Shown: positions 50,150 to 56,124 of the stretch, one piece after another
Layout: every line of letters begins with the position of its first letter
How positions within the stretch are numbered: position 1 is the first letter of the stretch
Assembly (NCBI RefSeq): GCF_000420305.1
Contig: NZ_ATUR01000002.1
Coordinates: 248,001-312,000 of the forward strand
Origin: Novosphingopyxis baekryungensis DSM 16222
GTDB taxonomy: Bacteria; Pseudomonadota; Alphaproteobacteria; Sphingomonadales; Sphingomonadaceae
Direction: 5' to 3'
DNA: 64,000 nt
The notes under the pieces: generated by a model
Database searches by the model: none
What the model saw: only the letters and a program-made list of their open reading frames with translations
What the model was told of the DNA's origin: nothing
Translations under genes and position numbers: made by a program

Positions 50150-50350
50150 CAGGCCCTGTTGGCAGATGATGTGGTCCGGAGGCGTGCGGCTGCGATATCT
50201 ATGAAGCGCATAGCTTGCCGAGATTTTGTCCTATCGCGCCGCAATGCTGCGTGGGCATTTGAGCTTGGCAAAGCAGCGCTCGATGCAGCTTCGAAAGGCG
50301 CAGGTGACGGTGTCGAGCGGGATCGCCGCCTTTTGCGCCTGCTACCGCGA
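50150..50350 (-). pseudogene. Decayed IS5-family transposase, C-terminal fragment
   Basis: One minus-strand frame reads 'FRSCIERCFAKLKCPRSIAAR', then an in-frame TAG, then 'DKISASYA'; shifting frame continues as 'FIDIAAARLRT'. Together this is the typical end of an IS5-family transposase (I-E-R-x-F-x-K-L-K, then I-A-x-R-Y-D-K). The stop and the frameshift show it is dead. Upstream transposase parts are missing. Confidence 0.75.
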
Positions 50351-50605
50351 TGATAGGCGTTCCGCCGTTCGGCGATCAGCGCCGCCAGCATGCCATTCTC
50401 GTTCCCAAGCGACTTCAACCGCCTGGCCTCGGGAGCCGAAGGCGTGCGCAGCACACACTTCCGGCCCGCCATAGTCAGAGTTCCAGTTGTAAAGTGGCGC
50501 CTCCGAGACACTGTACCGCCGGGCAAGGTTGGCTGTCTTCGCTCCCGCCTCGGATTTCTTCAGTGCGCCGATGATCTGCTCTTCCGTAAAGGTTGCTCTC
50601 TTCAT
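50350..50605 (-). pseudogene. Decayed IS3-family OrfA (IS407-like)
   Basis: From the ATG at 50605 the frame reads 'MKRATFTEEQIIGALKKSEAG' and 'VSEAPLYNWNSDYGG', the HTH end of an IS3/IS407-type OrfA. It then shifts frame near 50464 and continues as 'EARRLKSLGNENGMLAALIAE' (the leucine-zipper-like part). OrfB is absent. The fragment abuts an IS5-type remnant, so this is a graveyard of insertion sequences at the edge of the B12 locus. Confidence 0.8.
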
Positions 50606-50934
50606 CCTGTAAGTCCTTCCACAAGGGGCGGGCTCTAATCGAACTTGTAAGAAACTCAGGGGGGCAACGCACCGGCGTTGATGGCGGCCCATCCCAGGCT
50701 TTTGGGGCTACCGTAATATGCCGGGCGGAGACGGCGGGGGTGGAACGTAGCCTTCAGGCATGGGCGGTGGTGGCGTTGGGTTGAGGATGCTTTCCTCTGA
50801 TCGGAACTCGATCTGACGACCTTTTTCGCCCGGTCCATCAAAGAGCACGGGTCGTTTGGAGAAAATCCAGATTGAACCGCGCCGCTTGCGACCCTAGACG
50901 ACCGTGCGTTGGCGGTTTTTCTGTCGCCGACATT
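50606..50934. other. Spacer with no supported gene
   Basis: This 329-nt stretch between the IS3 remnant and the cobalamin riboswitch holds only short unsupported reading frames. The end of the IS element probably lies near 50670, where GGGGGGCAACGC resembles the C-rich inverted-repeat tips of IS3-family elements read on the other strand. The promoter for the riboswitch leader should lie near 50890-50930. Confidence 0.5.
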
Positions 50935-51130
50935 CGCATCGGTAACGGGAACACAGTGCGAGCATGTGCTGCTCTAATCTGAGGCTGTCCCTGCAACTGT
51001 AAGCGGTGAGCGAGAAGCATCCGCGGCCTTCACAAGGGGCCGCAGCCACTGGGCAATTCCGTCTGGAACGGAAAGCCTGGGAAGGTGTGCCTCCAGCGTC
51101 GACCCGTGAGCCAGGAGACCGACCGATGCG
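50935..51130 (+). ncRNA. Cobalamin (AdoCbl) riboswitch upstream of btuB
   Basis: All conserved boxes occur in order: GGTAACGGGAAC, GCTGTCCCTGCAACTGTAAGC, the B12 box part GCCACTGG, GGGAAGG and GAGCCAGGAGACC. The outer P1 helix is perfect: CGCATCGGT (50935-50943) with ACCGATGCG (51122-51130). The 180-nt region after it contains candidate expression-platform helices, for example GTCGCTC/GAGCGAC (51132-51138 with 51182-51188) and GGCTGGC/GCCAGCC (51222-51228 with 51245-51251). It should repress btuB when cobalamin is abundant. Confidence 0.95.
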
Positions 51131-51310
51131 GGTCGCTCTTGCCTGGCTCATGGGATTGGCCGGGCGCGAACCCTTTCGTCTGAGCGACGATTAGCGGCTG
51201 GGGCCGCATCGGGATTGGCCCGGCTGGCGCCCCTGCGTCCGCTTGCCAGCCATCCCGGCCGTTCTCGCGGACGCCCCGGCCTTGTTGCTCGACGCCTGGG
51301 ATAAAAACTG

Positions 51311-53251
51311 ATGACCATTGTCTTGCGTAGCTTTTTGCTCGCCACCACCGCCGTACCTGGCGTCCTTTCCGCTCAAATAGCCCCCGACATCGAAACGGAT
51401 TCCGATCCTGCCGATGCCCGAACCTTCGTGGTTACGGGTACCCGCTCTGCCGATCCCTTGCCCGCCGATCGCATTGGAAGTTCTGTTACGGTGCTTGATG
51501 AGACCATTCTTGAACGCCGGCAGGTGCGGCAAGTCTCGGATGTGCTGCGCGATGTGCCCGGCATCGCAGTCAGCCATGTGCCCGGCCAGACGCAGATCCG
51601 CATCAGAGGCGCGGAAGCCAACCACACGCTGGTGCTGATCGATGGGATCGAGGTGTCCGACCCCTTTGTCGGTGAGTTCGATTTCAGCGGATTGATTGCT
51701 GATGAGGCGGCGCGCATCGAAGTGCTGCGCGGGCAACAAAGCGCGATCTACGGCTCAGACGCGATCGGCGGGGTGATCCAGTACATCACGTTGACGGGCC
51801 GCGAAGCGCCCGGCATCAGCGGCCGGATCGAAGCGGGGTCCTTCGGCACGGTCAATGCCGCTGCGCGATTGGCAGGCGTGGCAGGAACCGTCGACTATGC
51901 GTTGTCGGCCACGCTCAACAGCACCGATGGAACGCCCGATGCCCGCAATGGCACACGGGATCTTGCAAACGATACCGGAGCGCTTTCGTTAAAGTCCACC
52001 TGGAGCCCGAGCGAGGCTTTCCGGCTGACGGGCGTGGCGCGCTATTCTCGCGGCGAGGTGGAGACCAACGACAGCGATAATGATCCTTCCAGCCCGACAT
52101 TCGGCTATCAGATCGACACGCCCGGCAGTGAAGTCGAAAGCGAGGCCTTTTACGGTCTGCTGCGCGCAGAGCTCGGCTTGCTCGATGGTCGCTGGACCCA
52201 TGCCCTGACCGGGCAGTTCGTCGATACTTCGCGCAATGGGTTCGACGCCGGCATGCGGGATTTCGGCAACAAGGGGCAGCGCCTCAAAGGCTCGTACGAA
52301 ACGACCTTTCGCTTCGATACTTCAGGCCTGCAGCATCGCCTGACCGGCGCGCTCGATGTGAAACGTGACCGGTTCCGCAATACCGACCCGTCCGGGTTCG
52401 CATTTTCAGGCGAGCGCGGCATCGATAATCTTGGTTTGGTCGCACAATATGACGCATTGATTGGCGACAATGCCAGTTTCGGTGCATCCATCCGGCGGGA
52501 CGACAACGACCGCTTCGCCGACACCACCACCTACCGCCTGCAAGCGAGCTACCGTTTCGACACGGGCACAAGGCTGCGCGCGGCGGCAGGGTCCGGCGTG
52601 AAAAACCCCACCTTTTACGAACTGTTCGGATATTCCGACGGGCGCTATATCGGCAATCCCGACCTGAAGCCCGAGCGGTCGGAAGGCTGGGAAGTCGGCG
52701 TGGAGCAAGACGTCGCCGACGGGGCTGCGACGCTGGGTGTGACCTATTTCGAAAGCGATCTGGAAAGCGAGATTTTCACCACTTACCCCGCGCCCACCTT
52801 CATCGCCACCTCCGCCAATCGAGACACTATGTCGACGCAGAACGGGGTCGAAGCTTTTGCGCAAATGAGGGGCGGGAAGGCCTGGAGCGTGAATGCGTCC
52901 TACACCTATCTGAATGCGCGCGAGGACGGAGTTCGGGAAATCCGCCGGCCGGAGCACATGGGCAGCGTCGCGGTCGACTGGCGTGCGCCGGCCGAGGCAG
53001 GCGGGGTGACATTGGTCGCGCGCTATAATGGCGAGACAGGCGATAATGCCTTTACCGATCCATCTTTTATCCCCGTGCGCGTGCGGTTGGATGACTATGT
53101 GCTCGTCAATCTGAATGCCGACGTGCGGCTGAATGATCATGTCGATCTGTTCGGTCGGATCGAAAATCTGGCAAATGAGGATTATGAGGACGTCTTTAGC
53201 TTCGAAACGCCCGGCCGTTCCGTCTTCATCGGTGCCCGCGCGCGGTTCTGA
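51311..53251 (+). CDS. btuB: TonB-dependent cobalamin receptor BtuB
   Basis: 646 aa outer-membrane receptor. A signal peptide ends at 'VPGVLSAQ', a TonB-box-like 'ARTFVVTGTR' follows near residue 37, then the plug ('QVSDVLRDVPGIAVSHVPGQTQIRIRG', 'HTLVLIDGIEVSDP', 'IEVLRGQQSAIYGSDAIGGVIQYIT') and a 22-strand barrel ending 'VFIGARARF'. The plug follows BtuB, and the AdoCbl riboswitch in its leader makes the substrate assignment strong. Its stop lies 4 nt from the stop of the converging PP-loop gene. Confidence 0.96.
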   Translation: MTIVLRSFLLATTAVPGVLSAQIAPDIETDSDPADARTFVVTGTRSADPLPADRIGSSVTVLDETILERRQVRQVSDVLRDVPGIAVSHVPGQTQIRIRGAEANHTLVLIDGIEVSDPFVGEFDFSGLIADEAARIEVLRGQQSAIYGSDAIGGVIQYITLTGREAPGISGRIEAGSFGTVNAAARLAGVAGTVDYALSATLNSTDGTPDARNGTRDLANDTGALSLKSTWSPSEAFRLTGVARYSRGEVETNDSDNDPSSPTFGYQIDTPGSEVESEAFYGLLRAELGLLDGRWTHALTGQFVDTSRNGFDAGMRDFGNKGQRLKGSYETTFRFDTSGLQHRLTGALDVKRDRFRNTDPSGFAFSGERGIDNLGLVAQYDALIGDNASFGASIRRDDNDRFADTTTYRLQASYRFDTGTRLRAAAGSGVKNPTFYELFGYSDGRYIGNPDLKPERSEGWEVGVEQDVADGAATLGVTYFESDLESEIFTTYPAPTFIATSANRDTMSTQNGVEAFAQMRGGKAWSVNASYTYLNAREDGVREIRRPEHMGSVAVDWRAPAEAGGVTLVARYNGETGDNAFTDPSFIPVRVRLDDYVLVNLNADVRLNDHVDLFGRIENLANEDYEDVFSFETPGRSVFIGARARF

Positions 53252-53255
53252 CGGA

Positions 53256-54116
53256 TCAGAGGCAATCCGGTTTCGGCGGGGATGGCGACCACGTTATGCG
53301 TGTGTGAAATTCTCCATTCTCGCCGAACGGATCGACATGAGCGGGCAAGCGTGCTTGCAGCTTTGCATCGAACACATCGCCAACAGCGATCTGCGACAGA
53401 TCGGGGGCGACCGCGCTGACGATGCTGGTGGCGCCCGACGCATGCAGATCCGTCAGCAGCATGTCGTAATCCGCATTCCATAGCGGGAAGACCAAATCCA
53501 GATCCGCTGTGCGCGGATGGTGGGCGAACGCCTGTTCGCGCCATGCGCGAATATGCGCCAGATGGAGATCGCCGAAGCAAAGGCGTTGGCAATCGGGCAC
53601 CAGATCGAGCGCGGCGGCGATTTGCTCCACATAATCGGCTCCCGGATGAAGCGGTACGCCGATCAGCGGCACATCGAGATGCGCGGCCTGTTCTACCACC
53701 ACGTCGATCGCAAATTCCTGATGCGCGATGGTTCGGCTGTGCGCATCGAAGGTGGTCAGCAGAACGATATTGGCATGACCCTCACGTTGCAGGGCGCGCA
53801 AGGCCAGATAGCTGTCCTTTCCCCCGCTCCAGAACAGCAGCGTCACCGCAGCATCCGTCCGCTCGGGCGCATCCGTCAGCCATGCGGCTTGCTGTATCTT
53901 TTGGGCACGCGCCGCAAGTTTCACAGCATCATGATCGAACGGGCAATGGCGGCAACCGGCACCGCAGCACCGTTCGCGCTGTAAAAGCCCAAGGCGGGTA
54001 AACACGACATAGCCGGTATCGGGATCATTATAGGTGAAGTCCCCGCGCGCGCAGGCCGCTTCATGCAATTCCCAACAGCTCGGCTCAGGCAAGTTCAAGG
54101 AATTCCGCCACCGCAT
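53256..54116 (-). CDS. DUF5522 / PP-loop ATPase fusion (diphthine-ammonia-ligase-like)
   Basis: 286 aa from the ATG at 54116; an in-frame TTG at 54101 is possible, and a longer reading to 54215 runs further into the upstream gene. Residues about 20-60 are a DUF5522-type Cys module: 'FTYNDPDTGYVVFTRLGLLQR' then 'CCGAGCRHCPFDH'. Residues about 88-275 are a PP-loop ATP pyrophosphatase: 'LLFWSGGKDSYLALRALQREG' with SGGKDS, plus 'VPLIGVPL', 'FGDLHLAHIRAWRE' and 'FPLW'. Such ATPases activate a carbonyl by adenylation. As the last gene of a riboswitch-controlled B12 operon it may modify a cobalamin derivative; that is inference. Confidence 0.85.
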   Translation of the reverse strand: MRWRNSLNLPEPSCWELHEAACARGDFTYNDPDTGYVVFTRLGLLQRERCCGAGCRHCPFDHDAVKLAARAQKIQQAAWLTDAPERTDAAVTLLFWSGGKDSYLALRALQREGHANIVLLTTFDAHSRTIAHQEFAIDVVVEQAAHLDVPLIGVPLHPGADYVEQIAAALDLVPDCQRLCFGDLHLAHIRAWREQAFAHHPRTADLDLVFPLWNADYDMLLTDLHASGATSIVSAVAPDLSQIAVGDVFDAKLQARLPAHVDPFGENGEFHTRITWSPSPPKPDCL

Positions 54117-54903
54117 CCGACAGCATGGCCATGCTGGGCAGCAAGGCCGGGCTGGGGCGGCTGAAATGCATATGTCCGTCCAGAAACAGAACCGGGCAAT
54201 CGAGCGGGACGGCATCTGCCTTTGCTCGATCTTCGTCCATGCCGCAGCAGGCGACGATGACGATGTCCGGCGCGGCCTTCGCGATCCGATCCCATTCCAC
54301 CTTGAAGGATGGTTCGCCGCTTTTGCCCAGAAGGCAGGTCATGCCCAAAGCTTCGATCATGTCCGGCATCCAGTGACCGGCGACGAACGGCGGATCGAGC
54401 CAGTCGAGAAACACCACGCGAAGTTTGCTGCCCGAATGGCGGCCCCGATAGTCGGCCAGCGTTGCATCCCATTTCTCGTGAAGCTCGGCAGCAGCGTGCT
54501 CCCTTCCGATGGCATTGCCCACCTGGTCGAAACACAGCGGCACATCGGCCAAACTGTGGGGCGACAGATCGACCAGACGCGGGCTGCTCGGCAGCGACAG
54601 CACGGCTTCCTGCACATCGCCGGCGGGCACCGCACATACATCGCAAAGCGACTGGCTCACCACGACATCGGGCGCCAGCCGTTCCAGCGTGGCGATATCC
54701 AGCTCGTACAGCGGCCGGGTCGCGGTGCTGACCTGGCGGTCGATCTCTGCTGCCGATGCCTTGGTGTCGATCCAGGTGCTGGTCAGCTTGGGCAGGTGGT
54801 CCCATTCGCCCGAACAGCTGTGACTGACCCCGACAAGATCGTCTGCCGCGCCCAGCGCGACGACGATGTCAGTGGCGCTGGGCAGTAGAGAAACGATCCG
54901 CAT
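54085..54903 (-). CDS. Cobalamin-binding (BtuF-like) protein without signal peptide
   Basis: 272 aa. The fold is that of class III substrate-binding proteins: 'MRIVSLLPSATDIVVALGAADDLVGVS', 'LERLAPDVVVSQSLCDVCAVPAGDVQEAV' and 'GMTCLLGKSGEPSFKVEWDRI'. BtuF homologues in the periplasm have an export signal; here the domain starts at residue 1, so the protein should stay in the cytoplasm. No BtuC or BtuD is nearby. It overlaps the DUF6580 gene upstream by 35 nt and the PP-loop gene downstream by about 30 nt. Confidence 0.9.
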   Translation of the reverse strand: MRIVSLLPSATDIVVALGAADDLVGVSHSCSGEWDHLPKLTSTWIDTKASAAEIDRQVSTATRPLYELDIATLERLAPDVVVSQSLCDVCAVPAGDVQEAVLSLPSSPRLVDLSPHSLADVPLCFDQVGNAIGREHAAAELHEKWDATLADYRGRHSGSKLRVVFLDWLDPPFVAGHWMPDMIEALGMTCLLGKSGEPSFKVEWDRIAKAAPDIVIVACCGMDEDRAKADAVPLDCPVLFLDGHMHFSRPSPALLPSMAMLSDAVAEFLELA

Positions 54904-55399
54904 CGAATGCTCCCGTCAACGCAATCACGCCGAATGCGGCGCCACCATATATGGCATTGGCGACTATGCCCTTCAGCAGAAATGGCAGGCCTGCGACATA
55001 GCAGGCTATCCAGCCTTCCAAAGTGTTCGGAAAGAACCCCATGGCCATCGTAGTGAGGTTGGAGATCAGGTAGAAAACGACAGCACTACCGATCGCCGCC
55101 AAGCCGACCGAAGACACGCCGATCTTGCCCAGCACAGGGCGAACCGACACCGCCGCGAGCAGGTGCCCGACATAGACGAAGCTCATCGCCAGAAGGCTGT
55201 AAAACCCGTTGACTGCATCGATGAAGAAGATGGTCGCCAATACCGGGGCGAGCATCAATTTGCGCGGCAGGAAAGCCGCCGCAACCATGCCGATCGCTCC
55301 GACGGTCGATAGGCCCATAGGGTGCGGCAGAGCATGGGATAATATGCCCGCAAGCGCGAGCATTGCGGCCAGAAGGCCGTTCTTCAAGTGGTGGTTCAT
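54869..55399 (-). CDS. DUF6580-family small membrane protein, candidate cobalamin transporter
   Basis: 176 aa from the ATG at 55399, first gene of the minus-strand riboswitch operon. Five to six hydrophobic segments: 'NGLLAAMLALAGILSHALP', 'GLSTVGAIGMVAAAFLP', 'APVLATIFFIDAVNGFYSLLAMSFVYVGHLL', 'SVGLAAIGSAVVFYLISNLTTMAMGFFP', 'WIACYVAGLPFLLKGIVANAIYGGAAFGVIAL'. The size and the Gly/Pro-rich 'HPMGLSTVGAIGM' loop recall DUF6580 and vitamin ECF S-components. Its control by an AdoCbl riboswitch and the lack of BtuCD suggest it moves B12 across the inner membrane. Confidence 0.82.
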   Translation of the reverse strand: MNHHLKNGLLAAMLALAGILSHALPHPMGLSTVGAIGMVAAAFLPRKLMLAPVLATIFFIDAVNGFYSLLAMSFVYVGHLLAAVSVRPVLGKIGVSSVGLAAIGSAVVFYLISNLTTMAMGFFPNTLEGWIACYVAGLPFLLKGIVANAIYGGAAFGVIALTGAFDADRFSTAQRH

Positions 55400-55448
55400 G
55401 GCACCAGTTCCATAAGCCGCCAGTCCCCGGACGGTGATTGTATCAGGT

Positions 55449-55594
55449 TCGAGTGGCCGGTCTCCGGACTTCACGAGTTTCGATCGGCAACGCCTTCCCA
55501 TCCCTGAGGACAGTGACATATTGCTGCAGATCACTCGATTACCGTTGCGAGGTCAGTACCGGATTTGCACCGGTTTCCCGTTCACCAAGCTCGA
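55449..55594 (-). ncRNA. Cobalamin (AdoCbl) riboswitch upstream of the DUF6580 operon
   Basis: Read on the minus strand the boxes are in order: TTGGTGAACGGGAAACCGGTG, CAAATCCGGTACTG, CCTCGCAACGGTAA, TCACTG, GGGAAGGCG and GAAGTCCGGAGACCGGCC. P1 pairs TCGAG (55594-55590) with CTCGA (55453-55449). The gene start is only 50 nt downstream, so translational control by hiding the ribosome site is likely; AGTCC in the last box could pair with GGGACT just before the start region. Confidence 0.95.
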
Positions 55595-56124
55595 TTGCGC
55601 GATTATTCGCGAATACATCATAACGCGTTCGCGGCTCGCGCCAAGAGGAATTTCTCGCTGGGCGTCGCGCTAGAGACAAGGCGACGCTGCAGCGCAATCG
55701 TGTGGTTCGTCAATATTATGTGTTCGCGCTGGAACTGGCTGTAATGGTTCCGCAAGCCTTTTTGTACGCACTTGGGCCGAACGGATATAGTCCGCCGTCG
55801 CTTGTCAGATCGCATCAAGCGGCCTGTGGGGCAGCACGGCGCGAAGCTGCCAGCGGGACGAACTTGGGCGATCGCGAGGAAAGCGATGGCTCTGCCCTGC
55901 ATTGAAGAACTCGCAAAAGTAAGGTCGGATCAAAGAGCGAAGCCAGGTCCTCTTTCTCCAAGGAGTGGTCCAATTGCACTGATGCATATCGCCGCTGCGC
56001 TCTCTTTTTCGGCACCTACCGCCTCTCCGTCTTTTCCGGTCTTATGCTGTTTTTTGGACCGATCGCAGAACGACACTGTGCACGTTCGCGTTAGCGCAAG
56101 ACTTCCTTTGGTTCGGAGCGTGGA
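55595..56124. other. 530-nt stretch without a supported gene
   Basis: Several short reading frames cross this stretch on both strands but none has a domain, a consistent codon pattern or a good start. Its left part must contain the promoter for the minus-strand riboswitch operon. Confidence 0.6.

Follow-up and report, generated by a model that had tools for sequence, protein, structure and literature searches.

The DNA analyzed here is a 64,000-nucleotide stretch of the Novosphingopyxis baekryungensis DSM 16222 genome (hereafter the window; C2:248001–312000), in which two opposed cobalamin riboswitches flank a btuB gene and an operon led by a membrane protein of the DUF6580 family. This arrangement is fairly likely to represent a second riboswitch-controlled locus for corrinoid uptake and salvage, with DUF6580 serving as a solitary carrier of the energy-coupling factor (ECF) S-component type, independent of an ECF ATPase, and with trapping and PP-loop-dependent remodeling of the corrinoid inside the cell. 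DUF6580 probably adds a second family to the solitary corrinoid carriers of S-component type. The riboswitches and genes of the window are ordinary in themselves, and the value of the locus lies in DUF6580.

Matches to the riboswitch model RF00174 covered the full model (positions 1–189) at 50923–51141 on the plus strand (77.2 bits, E 2.9e-17) and at 55438–55622 on the minus strand (93.1 bits, E 8e-22), both exceeding the gathering score of 31.5 bits. Two complete adenosylcobalamin riboswitches, as described in an earlier note made from the sequence alone, were thereby confirmed over spans slightly wider than those first given (50935–51130 and 55449–55594). The plus-strand riboswitch leads into a btuB-type TonB-dependent receptor gene (51311–53251, plus strand), the second btuB of the genome, while the minus-strand riboswitch leads into a three-gene operon encoding, in order, DUF6580 (54869–55399), a leaderless BtuF-like protein of the Peripla_BP_2 family (54085–54903), and a fusion of DUF5522 to a DUF71-B12 PP-loop domain (Dph6-like, Diphthami_syn_2; 53256–54116). 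All four flanked genes proved real by family matches: DUF6580 scored 92.3 bits against PF20221 (5e-26; Pfam gathering score, 27), the BtuF-like protein scored 54.5 bits (cut-off, 27.5), and the best NCBIfam family for the receptor was TIGR01779 (TonB-B12), albeit at 214.9 bits and below the 599.7-bit cut-off. The genome's first btuB, which shares 29% identity with the window gene, likewise fell short of this cut-off (276.6 bits). The start of the PP-loop gene is uncertain (ATG at 54215 or 54116, or TTG at 54098, 54092, or 54068). The DUF6580 and BtuF-like genes share 35 bases, suggesting coupled translation. The minus-strand riboswitch match stops ∼39 nucleotides short of the DUF6580 ATG, and RNA folding of the segment that separates the aptamer from the start codon gave no signal (z 0.29).

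The linkage of DUF6580 to B12 was examined first within the order, in 147 Sphingomonadales genomes, 64 of them from the same family. Since 140 of the 147 genomes contain a cobalamin riboswitch, presence per genome is uninformative, and linkage alone was used. DUF6580 was found in 13 genomes, with N. baekryungensis the sole carrier among the 64 family members, and 12 of the 13 carriers have a riboswitch 5′ of DUF6580 on the same strand and contig, 0.06–2.1 kb from the match; the DUF6580 contig of the 13th (G073) is broken. Among Sphingomonadales loci read at greater length, some of which are cut by a contig end, btuB precedes DUF6580 in nine and a BtuF-like gene follows in eight. The locus of one 100% complete genome (G011) consists only of a riboswitch, btuB, and DUF6580. 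A wider scan of genome contigs yielded 442 relatives, of which the best 80 loci (L019–L098), from many phyla, were analyzed. These were found by the pattern [LVI]PHP[WPM][NG][FLI]T[PT][VIL], such that constancy of this stretch is built in, and they are partly nonindependent, as L019 and L020 appear to be genomes G082 and G090 and a few others are near-copies. Among the 78 loci covered by the Rfam scan (all except L077 and L095), 27 from many phyla have a cobalamin riboswitch upstream on the same strand, 0.1–4.2 kb away. The idea that DUF6580 homologues never lie near B12 riboswitches is contradicted by these 27 loci and the 12 Sphingomonadales carriers. In two further loci, the riboswitch lies just downstream of DUF6580 and ahead of a TonB gene (L023), or farther off on the opposite strand (L039). 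Genes of the BtuB, BtuG, or PduO type were detected within 6 kb in 29 of the 80 loci with profiles built for the analysis, the BtuB profile possibly also taking in other TonB receptors. A riboswitch or one of these genes is present in 44/80 loci, rising to 48/80 when BtuF-like or PP-loop genes are added. Window DUF6580 had no tblastn match in plasmids and no relative in viral contigs.

Gene orders recur among these loci. The window order of DUF6580, BtuF-like, and PP-loop genes is repeated in L028, L034, L040, L045, and L074, four of which are riboswitch-led, and pduO follows DUF6580 at a distance of no more than 0.4 kb in six loci from Lysobacterales and relatives (L038, L052, L054, L055, L058, and L072). 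Locus L094 runs from a riboswitch through BtuB and a DUF5074 propeller with solved BtuG-type relatives to DUF6580; PDB relatives of such DUF5074 neighbors include 3dsm, which is BtuG2 (PMC6143338). In L041, a DUF4465 protein comes after the riboswitch, with a PP-loop gene and DUF6580 further on; DUF4465 is described as a B12-binding family in excerpts of PMC13398666 and PMC12751083. Both systems occur together in L044 (393–7549), where a riboswitch with BtuF, BtuC, and BtuD adjoins a riboswitch, BtuB, PP-loop, and DUF6580 series. A secreted-looking protein, recognized by eye, stands between the riboswitch and the PP-loop gene or DUF6580 in L024, L025, L026, L037, L050, and L071. The copy from L077 had no Pfam match, and the protein is a candidate new B12-binding surface protein.

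To determine which DUF6580 genomes possess a known inner-membrane B12 permease, FecCD was sought in 62 genomes, comprising the 13 from the order and 49 behind 50 chosen loci (loci already known to have a riboswitch first, followed by others with and without). A full-length FecCD, defined as a match above 200 bits, was present in 19 genomes and missing from 43. By the search's own cut-off, 33 of the 62 have some FecCD match, 19 of the genomes having weak partial ones only (∼20–37 bits). Among the 35 genomes with riboswitch-linked DUF6580 (G073 counted), 21 had no full-length FecCD; nine of these had no FecCD match at all and 12 had weak matches, the best weak match per genome being an ABC-3 permease in 11 and BPD_transp_2 in one. 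These 21 genomes and that of N. baekryungensis all contain B12-binding domains (G150 by a single weak match), and none of the 22 has a CbiC match. In 16 of the 21, full-length FecCD, ECF-T, and SbmA/BacA were all undetected, BtuM not being among the families sought; the 16 include the L094 genome (G156, titled complete), G011, and G093 (93% complete). Together with riboswitch linkage and the predicted fold described below, such B12-using genomes lacking full-length FecCD and CbiC matches lend strong indirect support to the earlier proposal of an alternative inner-membrane B12 carrier role for DUF6580, a proposal whose original premise, the absence of BtuCD, fails for the genome as a whole.

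DUF6580 is predicted to adopt an ECF S-component fold. AlphaFold returned a helical model for the window protein (predicted local distance difference test score [pLDDT] 90.2), for which the first 19 rows of a VIA-align comparison were ECF S-components (RibU, ThiT, FolT, PanT, BioY, CbiM, and others; Z 9.4–12.8). BtuM (8c7p) aligned at Z 12.0 with a root-mean-square deviation (rmsd) of 3.6 over 160, and below the S-components came MreD at Z 9.2, then values of 7.1 and less. For a typical member, that of L094 (pLDDT 96.2), BtuM with cobalamin ranked first and second (Z 14.4 and 14.3; 16% identity and rmsd 3.0 across 160 residues). These ranks amount to a tie, with 4huq_S (14.2) and a folate S-component (7nnt_C, 13.6) less than one Z unit below. 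S-components again made up the first 20 rows (Z 9.8–14.4), ahead of MreD at 9.0 and then values of 7.0 and less. The PDB titles of 4huq, 4hzu, and 4m58 say just “transporter,” and the chains concerned are presumed here to be S-components. Because helical bundles can reach Z ∼13 by chance, weight is placed on the uniformity of the top rows and the gap beneath them. The lysines and arginines of the window copy are confined to loops 2 and 4 and the termini, with none in loops 1, 3, or 5, a distribution that places the conserved loops 1, 3, and 5 outside.

The closest known counterpart is BtuM, a solitary S-component-like B12 transporter whose gene occurs with btuR (PMC6072759, in excerpt). As far as the models and that excerpt allow, BtuM and DUF6580 are alike in size, in their six helices, and in S-component fold (Z 14.3–14.4 for the typical member), as well as in occurring in genomes without ECF-T or BtuC and near btuB or adenosyltransferase genes. 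In contrast to BtuM, DUF6580 is found in many phyla, often beside BtuF-like and DUF71-B12 genes, and a search of the PDB with a DUF6580 profile gave no hit up to E 10, though the PDB includes BtuM chains. ECF-CbrT resembles DUF6580 in that CbrT is a B12 S-component and cbrT clusters with pduO; unlike the solitary action proposed for DUF6580, however, CbrT failed without its ECF module (PMC5997447, in excerpt). The ECF-T component that marks a classical ECF transporter had no match in the N. baekryungensis genome or in 19 of the 21 riboswitch-linked genomes without full-length FecCD.

Several observations weigh against a corrinoid carrier role for DUF6580. Fourteen of the 35 riboswitch-linked genomes own a full-length FecCD, and among the 21 that do not, two have ECF-T (G157 and G191) and three, all Pelagibacterales, have SbmA/BacA, the same two and three being the only hits among the 22 genomes. 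Completeness figures exist for a minority of the 21. Foldseek listed S-components first for the L094 model with a nonsignificant best E of 0.068, and for the window model only among noise. In BtuM, cobalamin is bound near the periplasmic surface and an invariant loop-3 cysteine ligates cobalt (PMC6072759, in excerpt); this cysteine is absent from all 59 DUF6580 sequences compared, the corresponding column holding 40 His, nine Tyr (Y67 in the window copy), six Ser, two Thr, one Asp, and one gap. No B12 link was found in 32 of the 80 loci, including Balneolales and candidate-phyla loci. In the eight Balneolales loci (L029, L035, L051, L053, L076, L083, L088, and L098), gene order is largely constant and neither a B12 gene nor a riboswitch was found nearby; DUF6580 there perhaps has another substrate or is unregulated. 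In L079 and L095, from candidate phyla, DUF6580 adjoins genes resembling glycosyltransferases by eye, and a B12 role is not evident. The unlinked loci, together with the position of MreD, a nontransport membrane protein, directly after the S-components (Z 9.2 and 9.0), would fit DUF6580 acting in corrinoid handling not as a carrier but as a membrane enzyme or an assembly partner. This explanation is very unlikely, as the best 19–20 structural matches are all S-components, with BtuM first for the typical member, and as BtuB genomes without FecCD still require an inner-membrane step.

A further objection comes from the N. baekryungensis genome itself (G000; 3.06 Mb, 99.99% complete). A third cobalamin riboswitch, the best of the genome, lies at C2:168888–169091, 80 kb from the window, and is followed in a row by btuB, a gene for a BtuF-type protein whose start resembles a lipobox by eye (LSAC), btuC, and the ATP-binding cassette ATPase btuD (C2:168888–174000; L005). 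The btuC gene is the one FecCD match of the genome (C2:171975–172886, 250.9 bits), and its best NCBIfam name is BtuC, below that family's cut-off. The BtuBFCD operon is followed by a thioredoxin reductase-like frame, as judged by eye. The statement that neither BtuC nor BtuD is encoded therefore holds within the window and fails genome-wide, where the search for btuC and btuD returned a full BtuFCD set; a genome without BtuCD was accordingly rejected, given the FecCD permease and ATPase downstream of the third riboswitch. The companion search for ECF genes gave no match to EcfT (PF02361, CbiQ family) in this genome. As the species owns BtuBFCD, a lack of BtuCD gives it no reason to depend on DUF6580, and this operon stands against the carrier role in the window. 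Window DUF6580 is also divergent: it groups with seven Sphingomonadales rows (support 99/100), yet its end branch is very long (5.32 changes per column), and it has lost R22, N29, T31, P32, W118, and Y123, which are kept in 57–58 of 58 relatives, N29, T31, and P32 falling inside the pattern used to find those relatives. In an alignment of 11 sequences including the window copy, drawn from an earlier hidden Markov model search independent of the pattern, Pro-His is invariant.

One explanation for this combination is that the locus is redundant, horizontally gained, and decaying, with BtuBFCD carrying the B12 flux and the function of DUF6580 lost or changed. The rarity of DUF6580 in the family (1/64 sampled genomes), the long branch and lost residues, and a transposase piece (HTH_Tnp_1; 50345–50692, minus strand) adjoining the locus just 5′ of the btuB riboswitch, which fits a mobile past, all agree with it. 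However, the reading frames are open, both riboswitches are complete and high-scoring, the window fold model is still confident, H26, D61, Y76, F109, N114, G129, and C133 are retained, and the composition of the locus shows no clear shift. Decay is thus possible but doubtful. With BtuBFCD present, the window DUF6580 may serve another corrinoid or a salvage role, or may be decaying.

The partner genes suggest what could follow transport. An in-frame stop closes the frame of the BtuF-like protein four codons ahead of the ATG (54903), leaving no room for an export signal, and the Peripla_BP_2 match starts at residue 3; the protein is thus leaderless and cytosolic, as the earlier note had held. 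It had no match among PDB sequences at E 0.1. By analogy with BtuM, for which trapping by BtuR was proposed (PMC6072759, in excerpt), the leaderless BtuF-like protein may be a cytosolic trap driving facilitated diffusion. Relative to BtuCDF, the window locus shares a proposed inner-membrane corrinoid step under a cobalamin riboswitch, but it contains neither permease nor ATPase, both being encoded elsewhere in the genome, and its BtuF-like protein is leaderless. The PP-loop protein carries SGGKDS and ENGEFH motifs, and ENGEF/YH in place of EGGE/DxE is the signature of the DUF71-B12 subgroup of COG2102, which has B12 gene neighbors and was tied to B12 salvage by de Crecy-Lagard and others in 2012 (PMC3541065, in excerpt). 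The suggested tailoring or salvage role agrees with this signature and is not new, having been in print since that year. DUF6580 has a PP-loop gene as a near neighbor in 23 of the 80 loci, and ExGE[FY]H occurs in 28 of the 30 PP-loop matches; the remaining two are fragments from a single locus. Unlike the described subgroup, the window protein is fused to DUF5522, which bears the cysteine motif CCGAGCRHCP (CCxxxCxxCP). Two distinct DUF71 PP-loop paralogues, of GEFH and GEYH types, are found around or beside DUF6580 in L022, L024, L025, L026, and L050.

These PP-loop neighbors also bear on the cargo. DUF6580 might carry a building block of corrinoids rather than the whole molecule (cobalt, or alpha-ribazole, dimethylbenzimidazole, or some other lower ligand) for remodeling with the DUF71-B12 enzyme: the S-component fold takes many substrates, including cobalt in the case of CbiM, PP-loop genes are frequent neighbors, and a part in pseudo-B12 salvage has been predicted for DUF71-B12 proteins (PMC3541065, in excerpt). 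However, DUF6580 occurs with BtuB or PduO and with no PP-loop gene found nearby in several loci, such as L094, L068, L038, and Sphingomonadales loci, the 16 genomes described above would be left with no corrinoid importer among the families sought, and the absence of CbiC from 22/22 genomes implies that cobalt for corrin ring synthesis is not expected to be needed. A building-block cargo is therefore quite unlikely.

Under the preferred reading of DUF6580 as a solitary corrinoid carrier, the protein (∼170–190 amino acids) would bind corrinoid at the periplasmic face through loops 1, 3, and 5 and would carry it inward over the inner membrane with no ECF ATPase module, from a locus presumably repressed through its riboswitches. 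The leaderless BtuF-like protein would hold the corrinoid inside, trapping that pulls transport forward, and elsewhere a neighboring adenosyltransferase, PduO, would take its place. The DUF5522/DUF71-B12 enzyme might then remodel or amidate the corrinoid. Chances appear about even for the broader proposition that DUF6580 is a phylum-spanning carrier family, separate from BtuM, which takes the place of BtuCD in many Gram-negative bacteria auxotrophic for B12. Under this proposition, a sink in the cytosol (the leaderless BtuF-like protein or PduO) would drive the carrier, and a conserved loop-1 His, often joined by a loop-3 His, could ligate cobalt where BtuM uses its cysteine.

A literature search found the name DUF6580 in no paper searched, an earlier prediction under another name being possible. 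Alternative transporters, to which PMC6072759 refers, were reportedly predicted by Rodionov in 2003 (JBC). DUF5522 likewise appeared in no paper searched, and BtuN returned nothing relevant. Excerpts of PMC2211319, PMC12478193, PMC6970198, and PMC7733943 contained no earlier claim for DUF6580, the last noting that cbiR of A. muciniphila adjoins putative transport genes. Around half of the bacteria auxotrophic for B12 are predicted to have BtuCDF, and BtuB without BtuCDF is found in many Gram-negative auxotrophs (PMC6072759, in excerpt). The carrier idea is directly testable in the published E. coli ΔmetE ΔbtuF ΔbtuC strain. If it is true, a second, riboswitch-controlled family of solitary carriers would fill part of the gap left by BtuB without BtuCDF, with Bacteroidota, Verrucomicrobiota, and Ignavibacteriota as examples. 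Such a family would also be relevant to the way in which an S-component fold can transport large ligands when no ATPase is present.

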